From Enterobacterales bacterium (GTDB lineage: Bacteria; Pseudomonadota; Gammaproteobacteria; Enterobacterales; Enterobacteriaceae), in the NCBI GenBank assembly GCA_003864575.1, contig BHES01000004.1, positions 1-64,000 of the forward strand: a DNA stretch of 64,000 bases, read 5' to 3'. This document shows, piece by piece, positions 7,036-54,296 of this stretch. The first letter of the stretch is position 1. Every line of letters begins with the position of its first letter. The notes under the pieces were generated by a model. That model saw only the letters and a list, made by a program, of their open reading frames with translations. It did not search any database and was not told where the DNA came from. A program made the position numbers and the translations under genes.

Positions 7036-7917
7036 TTACATCAAGTCGTTGAGCATAACCCCAACACCGATGCGGGTTTGCTTGTGATTGTAGTCAATCA
7101 ATGACTCGCCGTAACCGCTAAAGACCTGCGCGTAAAAGCGGGCATGTTTTGAAATTGGGTAGCTCCAGCCTGTCGTCGCGCCACCGTAACCGGTATTCCA
7201 GTTATAACGGCTTTCCACGCTGAACACGCTGTCACCCCAGGCATAGCCCATTTTCAGACGGTAGTAACCCATGTACTTGGTGATATCCGGGTTATCGTTA
7301 TCTTCGTCATTTTCAGGAAGGCGATACCAGGGCTTGAGATCAACTTGCCAGTTGCCATGTTGAGCCATGAAACGGGCATAAACGCGGTTCCAGCTGCGGG
7401 AGGTCGGGTCCGAACTGCCGTTAGATTGGTGATTCACACCATATTCTGCTTCGCGAAGCGTCCAGCCGAGAAAACTGTAATCGGTGGCCCATGCCAGGAA
7501 CAGTTGCGGTTCATAGTTGGTTTCACGAAATGGTGAAGACTCTGCACGGTTAGATAGCTGCCAGAATGATTTTTGCGTATAGGAAGCACCGAGCACGGAG
7601 TTATCACCGGCAATACCACGCCATATCGGGAACGCCAGGCTGAGTTGAAATTCAACTTCATCGTGCTTGGCATTTTTTGCCCAACTATCAGATTTAATCG
7701 AATTTTTATTAATATTACTGGTGTCGGTATAGAGCAGATAGTTGGATTCGTAAGGATAAAGCGTTAAAGGGTTATCATGTATCTCCAGCATGTTCGCCAC
7801 GATACTACCGCGTACGGATGGCTTATCATGTACTGCGACTATGGTCGCTTCATCCGCGTGCCCCATTAACGGCAGCACCAGCAAGGCGGCGCCAGCAAGG
7901 CGGCGCCAGCAGTCCAC
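7036..7917 (-). CDS. pldA: Outer membrane phospholipase A, signal-peptide region frameshifted by a tandem duplication
   Basis: PldA is a dimeric 12-stranded outer-membrane barrel that hydrolyses surface-exposed phospholipids. The body is intact: NHQSNG carries the catalytic His163 and Ser165, Asn177 (SWNRVY) completes the triad, and it ends GVGVMLNDLM. The 5' end is odd. The natural ATG is at 7928, nine bases after an AAGGA ribosome site, but that frame stops at 7868-7866. A 14-bp direct duplication (7880-7907) shifts the reading. Removing one copy restores MDKKWTAGAALLVLPLMGHADEA in frame with the mature protein. The listed frame instead uses a GTG at 7917 with only a weak ribosome site; it still gives a plausible signal peptide (VDCWRRLAGAALLVLPLMGHA). 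Expression may be reduced, phase-variable, or an assembly artefact. Confidence 0.85.
   Translation of the reverse strand: MDCWRRLAGAALLVLPLMGHADEATIVAVHDKPSVRGSIVANMLEIHDNPLTLYPYESNYLLYTDTSNINKNSIKSDSWAKNAKHDEVEFQLSLAFPIWRGIAGDNSVLGASYTQKSFWQLSNRAESSPFRETNYEPQLFLAWATDYSFLGWTLREAEYGVNHQSNGSSDPTSRSWNRVYARFMAQHGNWQVDLKPWYRLPENDEDNDNPDITKYMGYYRLKMGYAWGDSVFSVESRYNWNTGYGGATTGWSYPISKHARFYAQVFSGYGESLIDYNHKQTRIGVGVMLNDLM
7880..7907. repeat. 14-bp perfect tandem duplication inside the pldA signal-peptide coding region
   Basis: Two adjacent identical copies of AGCAAGGCGGCGCC (7880-7893 and 7894-7907), followed by a 4-base partial match (AGCA). Fourteen is not a multiple of three, so copy number sets the reading frame of pldA from its natural ATG. 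Confidence 0.97.
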
Positions 7918-8005
7918 TTCTTATCCATTTTATTTTATCCTTATGAATTAATTTATCTTAAATGAGCCAAACACTCGGCTGAAACACAGAGAAAAGAAAA
8001 AATAT

Positions 8006-12715: not shown

Positions 12716-14878
12716 TCAAACGGCTTCTAATCTTGCATATGCCGCAACCAGCCATTTTATGCCTTCACCGGGGAACGCCACTTGCAGGCGGCTATGTTCG
12801 CCGCTGCCTTCCATGTTCACGATGGTGCCTTCGCCAAATTTCGGATGCACTACGCGCTGGCCGAGGGTGAAGCCGGTGTCGCTGGTATTCACCGGCGTGC
12901 CTATGCGTTTATGGCTGGCCGGTCGGGAAACGCTGGCGCGCAGGCGAACTTCCTCAACGCAGTTTTCCGGCAACTCACCGATAAAGCGTGAAGGCTTGTG
13001 GTAAACCTCTTTGCCATACAGACGGCGGGTTTCGGCGTAGGTCAGCGTCAACTTTTGCATCGCACGTGTCACACCCACGTAGGCCAGACGGCGTTCTTCT
13101 TCCAAACGCCCACCTTCATCCAGCGACATTTGGCTCGGGAACATGCCCTCCTCCACACCCACGATAAACACCTGCGGGAATTCCAGCCCTTTGGCCGAGT
13201 GGAGCGTCATCAGCTGGGTGGCATCCTGATTGGCATCCGCCTGCCCTTCACCCGCTTCCAGCGCGGCATGGGACAAGAAAGCCTGTAAAGGCATCAGATC
13301 CTGATCTTCATCCTGATAGCTGAACTGGCGCGTTGCCGTCACCAGTTCCTCAAGGTTTTCAATACGTGCCTGGCCTTTCTCGCCTTTTTCCTGCTCGTAC
13401 ATGATGAACAGCCCAGAGTCTTTGATCACCCGGTCAGTCTGCACGTGCAGCGGCATATCGGCGGTTTCATGCGCCAGAGCATCCACCAGTTCGCAAAAAC
13501 GTTGCAACGAGGCGGCTGCGCGCCCCGCCAGTACTTTATCCTGCAACAGCGCACGCGTGGCCTGCCACATGGTCATCTGCCGGTCACGGGCGGTCTGGCG
13601 CACTACGTCAAGGGTGCGATCGCCAATACCGCGCACCGGGGTGTTCACCACGCGCTCAAAAGCGGCATCGTCATTGCGGTTCGCCATCAGGCGCAGATAC
13701 GCCAGGGCATCTTTGATTTCCTGACGTTCGAAGAAGCGCTGGCCGCCGTAAATGCGGTACGGCATCGCCATCTGTAAGAGTGCCTCTTCCAGCACGCGTG
13801 ACTGGGCGTTGCTGCGGTACAAAATCGCGCAGTCTTTCAGCGCACCGCCGTTGTCCTGCCAGGCTTTGATCCGGTTGACCACAAAGCGCGATTCGTCGAG
13901 CTCATTGAACGCGCAATAGAGCGAAATTGGCTCGCCTTCCACGCCTTCGGTCCACAGGTTTTTCCCCATTCGGCCGCTGTTATTGGCGATCAGCGCATTG
14001 GCGGCGGTCAAAATGGTGCTGGTGGAGCGGTAGTTCTGCTCCAGACGGATAGTTTCTGCGTTCGGGAAATCTTTCAGGAAGCGCTGGATGTTTTCGACCT
14101 GCGCACCGCGCCAGCCATAAATTGACTGGTCATCATCGCCGACAATCATCACGTTGTTATTGTTACCCGCCAGCAGACGGATCCACGCGTACTGAATGCT
14201 GTTGGTATCCTGGAACTCGTCCACCATCAGGTTGGTAAAGCGTTCGCGGTAATGCTGCAAAATATGCGGCTTGTTCAGCCACAGTTCATGGGCGCGCAGC
14301 AGCAGCTCGGCGAAATCCACCAGCCCGGCGCGGTCGCAGGCTTCCTGATAGGCCTGATAGATGCGCAGCCAGGTGGCTTCCACCGGGTTGTTATAAGTTT
14401 CAACGTGCTGCGGACGTAAACCTTCATCTTTTTTGCCGTTGATGTACCACATCGCCTGACGCGGTGGCCACTGTTTGTCGTCGATATTCAGCGCTTTAAC
14501 AATACGTTTGAGCAGCCGCAGTTGGTCGTCGCTGTCGAGGATTTGAAAGTCTTGCGGCAAGTTGGCGTCAAGGTGATGGGCGCGCAGCAAGCGGTGGGCC
14601 AGACCGTGGAAAGTTCCGATCCACATGCCCCCCTGACTGGTGCCAATCAGTTGATCAATACGGTGGCGCATTTCCGCTGCCGCTTTGTTGGTAAACGTCA
14701 CGGCCATGATGGAGTACGGCGAGCAATTTTCTACCGACAAAAGCCAGGCGATACGGTGAACCAGGACGCGGGTTTTGCCACTGCCTGCTCCCGCCAACAC
14801 CAACAGATTGCTGCGCGGCGCGGCCACGGCTTCACGTTGTTTTTCATTCAGGCTGTCGAGCAGGTCAGAAACGTCCAT
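12716..14878 (-). CDS. uvrD: DNA helicase II UvrD
   Basis: The 720-residue protein is the same length as E. coli UvrD, a 3'-5' superfamily 1 helicase for nucleotide-excision and mismatch repair. GAGSGKT (Walker A) is at residues 30-36, FTNKAAAEM follows, then VDEFQDTN (Walker B), [19 protein letters not shown] and LMTLHSAKGLEF, ending in the Tudor-like C-terminal domain (GQRVVHPKFGEGTIVNMEG). I chose the start MDVSDLL at 14878; an ATG two codons earlier is possible. A LexA box and a leader terminator precede it, as expected for an SOS gene. Confidence 0.98.
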   Translation of the reverse strand: MDVSDLLDSLNEKQREAVAAPRSNLLVLAGAGSGKTRVLVHRIAWLLSVENCSPYSIMAVTFTNKAAAEMRHRIDQLIGTSQGGMWIGTFHGLAHRLLRAHHLDANLPQDFQILDSDDQLRLLKRIVKALNIDDKQWPPRQAMWYINGKKDEGLRPQHVETYNNPVEATWLRIYQAYQEACDRAGLVDFAELLLRAHELWLNKPHILQHYRERFTNLMVDEFQDTNSIQYAWIRLLAGNNNNVMIVGDDDQSIYGWRGAQVENIQRFLKDFPNAETIRLEQNYRSTSTILTAANALIANNSGRMGKNLWTEGVEGEPISLYCAFNELDESRFVVNRIKAWQDNGGALKDCAILYRSNAQSRVLEEALLQMAMPYRIYGGQRFFERQEIKDALAYLRLMANRNDDAAFERVVNTPVRGIGDRTLDVVRQTARDRQMTMWQATRALLQDKVLAGRAAASLQRFCELVDALAHETADMPLHVQTDRVIKDSGLFIMYEQEKGEKGQARIENLEELVTATRQFSYQDEDQDLMPLQAFLSHAALEAGEGQADANQDATQLMTLHSAKGLEFPQVFIVGVEEGMFPSQMSLDEGGRLEEERRLAYVGVTRAMQKLTLTYAETRRLYGKEVYHKPSRFIGELPENCVEEVRLRASVSRPASHKRIGTPVNTSDTGFTLGQRVVHPKFGEGTIVNMEGSGEHSRLQVAFPGEGIKWLVAAYARLEAV

Positions 14879-14895
14879 AGGCACCGTTGGTCAGG

Positions 14896-53366: not shown

Positions 53367-54296
53367 TTATTGGGGGTTGATTGGATCCAACCAACCCCAT
53401 TTGTCTTCGGTTTTGCCGGTAAACAACCCGAAGAAGGCATCCTGAATTTGTTTAGTGATCGGGCCGCGTTTGCCGATACCGACCTGAATGCCGTCAACGC
53501 TGCGCACCGGCGTAATTTCTGCCGCAGTACCGGACATAAACACTTCGTCAGCCAGATACAGGGATTCGCGTGACAATACTTGCTCGCGAACTTCAAGGCC
53601 CATGTCTTTCGCCAGCTTGATAATGGCATCACGGGTGATACCCGGCAGTGCAGAAGAGGTAAACGGAGGCGTGAACAGAATGCCCTCTTTCACTTCGAAC
53701 AGGTTCTCGCCAGCACCTTCGGAAACATAACCGTGGATGTCGAGTGCGATACCTTCCTGATAACCATGGCGGCGTGCTTCGCTGCCCACCAGCAATGAGG
53801 AGAGGTAGTTACCACCGGCTTTTGCGGCGGTCGGAATGGTGTTAGCGGCAACGCGGTTCCAGGAAGACACCATCGCGTCGATGCCCTGCTCCAGCGCTTC
53901 TTCGCCCAGATATGCACCCCACGGGAAGGCGGCGATGATCACATCAGTTTTATAGCCATCCGGCGGGTTTACGCCCATACCCACATCGCCAACAAACACC
54001 AGCGGGCGGATATACGCGCTGACCAGATTGTTTTTACGCAGGGTTTCGCGGCAGGCTTCCATCAGCTCGTCAACGCTCTGAGTCACCGGCATGCGGTAGA
54101 TTTTTGCTGAGTCACGCAGACGCTGCATGTGTTCACGGTGGCGGAATACCACTGGGCCTTTGTGGGAGTCGTAGCAACGGACGCCTTCAAAGACTGAGGT
54201 GCCGTAATGCAGTGCGTGTGACATTACGTGAACTTTGGCTTCCGCCCAGGGAACCATCTCGCCGTTGAACCAAATGAAATCAGCTTTCTTCGTCAT
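53367..54296 (-). CDS. ilvE: Branched-chain amino acid aminotransferase IlvE
   Basis: The 309-residue fold-type IV PLP enzyme does the last step to valine, leucine and isoleucine. The PLP lysine is about Lys159 in TAAKAGGNYLSSLLV; LHYGTSVFEGVRCY and EVFMSGTAAEITPV are conserved. It lies 16 bp after ilvM and just before the palindromic repeat. Confidence 0.98.
   Translation of the reverse strand: MTKKADFIWFNGEMVPWAEAKVHVMSHALHYGTSVFEGVRCYDSHKGPVVFRHREHMQRLRDSAKIYRMPVTQSVDELMEACRETLRKNNLVSAYIRPLVFVGDVGMGVNPPDGYKTDVIIAAFPWGAYLGEEALEQGIDAMVSSWNRVAANTIPTAAKAGGNYLSSLLVGSEARRHGYQEGIALDIHGYVSEGAGENLFEVKEGILFTPPFTSSALPGITRDAIIKLAKDMGLEVREQVLSRESLYLADEVFMSGTAAEITPVRSVDGIQVGIGKRGPITKQIQDAFFGLFTGKTEDKWGWLDPINPQ

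Follow-up and report, generated by a model that had tools for sequence, protein, structure and literature searches.

Does the pldA gene of this enterobacterial genome carry an on/off switch for its phospholipase, or has it been hit by an ordinary mutation? The window analyzed here, a single stretch of 64,000 nucleotides, contains in the pldA leader two tandem copies of AGCAAGGCGGCGCC (7880-7907). The original prediction held that this doubling breaks the frame opened by ATG 7928, and the sequence, the open reading frames and TRF all bear this out (Table 1). The period-14 tract shows 20 consecutive matches at offset 14, and the doubled 14-bp unit occurs only once in the whole genome.

An intact pldA frame separated from its normal start

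The affected gene is a member of the OMPLA/PldA family. Its PLA1 domain was recognized by Pfam (PF02253, E = 1.4e-93) and the frame matches the NCBIfam model of phospholipase A (PRK10763, 519 bits). The alignment with E. coli OMPLA (1fw2, E = 8e-135) runs from end to end, covers the barrel and keeps the catalytic His/Ser/Asn positions in NHQSNGSSDPTSRSWN. A search of the genome for a further intact copy returned none, pldA being single-copy.

Three starts have to be considered. ATG 7928, the start of the relatives, has the best ribosome site of the three, with AAGGA upstream and a Shine-Dalgarno-like pairing of -6.0 kcal/mol, and it is out of frame with the PldA body. GTG 7917, located 11 nt downstream of this ATG, joins a plausible signal peptide to PldA in frame; it is preceded, two codons upstream and in the PldA frame, by a TAA, and its anti-Shine-Dalgarno pairing is weak (-3.1 kcal/mol). 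The third start, ATG 7866, gives a product (MGHADEAT...) devoid of hydrophobic core; reinitiation at the TAATG overlap could produce a leaderless PldA, which would probably not leave the cytoplasm.

Table 1. Coordinates of the pldA frames, starts and repeats in the window.
Feature	Position	Strand	Description
pldA (outer membrane phospholipase A1, OMPLA), frame from GTG	7036..7917	-	293 aa, mature part complete
Short frame from ancestral ATG	7866..7928	-	20 codons (MDKKWTAGAALLAPPCWCCR), TAA stop at 7868-7866
Alternative GTG start, PldA frame	7915..7917	-	Gives MDCWRRLAGAALLVLPLMGHA-DEAT, a plausible signal peptide
ATG in PldA frame	7864..7866	-	Overlaps the TAA of the short frame as TAATG (7868-7864); downstream of the signal peptide core
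Perfect tandem tract, 14-bp unit	7878-7911	.	34 bp, 2.4 copies, 100% matches, TRF score 68 (script)
CCAGCA direct repeat bounding the 14-bp unit	7878-7883; also 7892-7897 and 7906-7911	+	Copies 14 bp apart

Comparison with relatives and origin of the duplication

The pldA start was aligned with those of the 21 nearest relatives retrieved by a scan of genome contigs (ten Rahnella, Ewingella americana, Hafnia psychrotolerans, Rouxiella and allies, Chimaeribacter and one more distant relative). Exactly these 14 bases are missing in all 21, leaving a clean gap, and the equivalent of ATG 7928 is in each of them a start that leads straight into PldA. Therefore, this lineage alone gained a second copy by insertion and the one-unit state is ancestral, in agreement with the proposal that removal of one 14-bp copy joins the ATG start to an intact PldA. 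A set of relatives that all carry two copies and a conserved GTG start, the outcome opposed to the original prediction, was not what the comparison of 5′ ends revealed. The search was widened to 69 pldA 5′ regions from members of the family and of the order, including that of the window itself and with some genomes counted twice. The other 68 regions contain no comparable repeat and no exact tandem unit larger than 11 bp, the largest one (11 bp) being an intragenic repeat of a distant member.

The additional unit has the features of a slippage-generated duplication, since it is an exact copy, has a pre-existing short direct repeat at its bounds and is missing in the relatives. The pldA leader would already have contained a CCAGCA direct repeat with copies 14 bp apart; slippage of replication between two of these copies would have duplicated the 14-bp unit, and the resulting +14 shift would have put the normal ATG out of frame. 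The view that gain or loss of one unit by slipped-strand replication is the natural mutational route can be retained; a short repeat at the bounds of the unit is what slippage would lead one to expect, and a further change in unit number by slippage could reverse the duplication. On the coding strand, the leader carries three copies of TGCTGG in the window and zero to two in the relatives. One of the latter (L022) has two copies located 14 bp apart, yet without any duplication, which indicates that this arrangement permits the event and does not force it. On balance, the duplication is probably a recent, lineage-specific and in principle reversible slippage mutation by which PldA was reduced or lost, and not an evolved switch.

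Consequences for PldA synthesis

With the normal ATG out of frame, PldA would be lost or weakly made from GTG 7917. It is also conceivable, although rather unlikely, that translation from this GTG yields a functional secreted PldA, whose n-region MDCWRR would replace MDKKWT, and that the duplication is nearly neutral. The GTG-started leader indeed has an n-region charge of +1, a core hydrophobicity of 2.29 (1.64-2.55 in the relatives) and the original cleavage region, and the rest of PldA is strongly constrained. However, ribosome pairing at the GTG is weaker than at ATG 7928 and than at the start of pldA in five relatives (-6.4 to -9.3 kcal/mol), no relative uses this start, and the stronger ATG located just upstream likely captures the ribosomes. 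The GTG start of the shifted frame, which had been considered remarkable, proved not to be so: the T in front of the conserved Trp codon TGG creates a TTG at the equivalent place and in the same frame in 19 of the 21 relatives, and the GTG of the window owes its existence to the same codon.

Under the favored explanation, slippage with a loss of output, a plausible signal peptide placed behind a weak ribosome site makes a reduced synthesis of PldA possible. Judging from the sequence, reduced or no secreted PldA is the likely outcome; partial PldA function through the GTG is nevertheless a real possibility, and with two copies the gene may still not be switched off completely.

The coding part of pldA contains no additional stop or frameshift. 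Pairwise dN/dS ratios between pldA of the window and those of the relatives range from 0.04 to 0.09, compared to 0.02-0.08 among the relatives, these ratios being rough because synonymous sites are near saturation. The window values lie in the upper part of the range of the relatives, yet they indicate strong constraint. The intact coding part and the low dN/dS imply that the duplication is recent, or else that it is tolerated or the gene still used. It should also be emphasized that the search for pldA was negative in 106 of the 246 genomes of the family, many of them strongly reduced to symbiont size, and its loss is therefore tolerated in some lineages.

Genome background

The genome amounts to 3.6 Mb (95.6% complete), compared to 4.7-5.4 Mb in its genus (sample of six members, including the genome of the window). 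Genes of three relatives from the genus were screened for breaks against sampled stretches of the genome, partial matches near the edges of the stretches being discounted, and 131 genes were comparable. Clear breaks affect three of these 131 genes, versus 2/347 in three relatives under the identical screen. As this screen leaves the first 35 residues out of consideration, pldA is not among the three. The two breaks of the relatives are in-frame stops, without a single frameshift in the 347 genes. In the genome of the window, degQ (L110:16764-18129) has gained one base compared with Ewingella; this +1 frameshift splits the gene into two frames and may reflect either true decay or an error in sequencing. 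In ilvI (acetolactate synthase 3 large subunit; L100:3244-4946), about 13 bp are deleted near codon 246, which shifts the frame. The third gene, which encodes a C-terminal ferredoxin domain (L098:671-1489) and which is probably YcbX-like, is interrupted by an in-frame TAG at roughly one third of the length of the frame in the relative. The contrast is statistically weak: without pldA, frameshifting indels amount to 2/131 versus 0/347 (p about 0.07, calculated by hand); adding pldA gives p = 0.02, a biased value because this gene had been chosen beforehand.

Two observations speak against gene decay: the sampled stretches have a normal coding density, and no break was seen in the remaining 40-odd genes of the window that could be compared. 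Stops near the start of a helicase-like gene (12716-14884) and of an aminotransferase-like gene (53367-54296) are not breaks, the frame start of the relative being over-extended in both cases. Another flagged gene (10667-9525) is not broken either, as the signal comes from a C-terminal extension found in one relative only and was also raised in G002. Overall, the breaks and the small genome size suggest, without proving it, that the genome is at an early stage of gene decay, and the pldA duplication would be one of several gene-breaking changes in it.

The fragmentation of the assembly (215 contigs) and the possible error in degQ could raise the suspicion that the true sequence has one unit and that the second one arose during sequencing or assembly. 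This is most improbable, since reads exceed the 34-bp tract in length, and a perfect 14-bp duplication with a natural direct repeat at its bounds is the expected product of a biological event. Moreover, assemblers tend to collapse repeats rather than to expand them.

Is the tract a phase-variation switch?

According to the original prediction, gain or loss of the 14-bp unit would turn PldA on and off in a selected phase variation, as does a homopolymer in pldA of Helicobacter pylori. Several features could fit this view: the repeat is perfect over its 34 bp, its unit changes the frame, the gene encodes a surface enzyme and the downstream frame is intact. However, the tract comprises two copies only (2.4 counting the partial one), and not the several units of a hypermutable tract. 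It is also not conserved across related species, being missing in the 21 aligned relatives and in the other 5′ regions scanned. Furthermore, the data consist of one static sequence and a single allele, from one genome of the species, and other genes of this genome are broken by different indels. A dedicated switch is thus possible but unsupported, and we consider selected phase variation improbable here. Equally improbable is a young contingency locus, in which the gain or loss of one 14-bp unit, within a slippage repeat specific to this lineage, would set the outer-membrane phospholipase of an enterobacterium at a normal level or at a low to absent one. The slippage mutation favored above involves no selected switching.

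Precedents for switching by such changes exist in other bacteria. In H. pylori, pldA is phase-variable through a homopolymeric tract (Tannaes et al., cited in PMC3490997), located around codons 226-228 and present in all clinical isolates sequenced in that study (PMC3490997). As in that gene, a slippage-prone repeat in the pldA reading frame sets here a full-length versus a truncated product. Unlike that homopolymer, the present tract is a two-copy 14-bp unit situated in the signal peptide and missing in all the relatives examined. Pneumococcal capsule genes undergo spontaneous duplications within their reading frames that are reversible and cause phase variation (Waite et al. 2001, 2003, cited in PMC4243769). 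The likeness lies in a duplication within a reading frame, which inactivates the gene there and is reversible, by a mutational mechanism that the two cases share. Nevertheless, reversion was observed in pneumococci, whereas the window offers a single static sequence, and both the gene and the phylum are different.

In mutL, three 6-bp copies form the conserved functional state, and a change in their number stays in frame. By contrast, the conserved state of pldA is one 14-bp unit and the change shifts the frame. What the two cases share is an enterobacterial gene whose function changes with how many copies of a short tandem repeat it contains; switches of this type in mutL are the subject of PMC2955026. 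Our search of the literature on short tandem duplications found little that was directly pertinent.

These readings differ in what they would mean. If the duplication belongs to ordinary decay, it is another case of envelope gene loss, in which a clean slippage duplication has been caught before erosion. If two states coexist, it would illustrate how a contingency locus can begin from a chance direct repeat. In addition, gene calling will place the start of pldA at the GTG and present the gene as full-length, which hides the change.

A genome-wide set of comparable repeats, as contingency loci might form, was not found in the 464 kb sampled from the genome: the pldA tract is the only exact tandem repeat there with a unit of at least 11 bp, a 6-bp VNTR in L111 excepted. 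A handful of exact tandem tracts was detected in 1.2 Mb of a relative from the genus, showing that tracts of this kind exist but are rare. Other arrays were observed during this survey. The VNTR of the genome of the window (L111:2543-2572) consists of five copies of TTCAAC, and a similar AAATTC tract is present in a relative from the genus (L207:772-809). An array of 30-bp repeats, also in a relative from the genus (L211:11051-11352), possibly encodes a repetitive protein.
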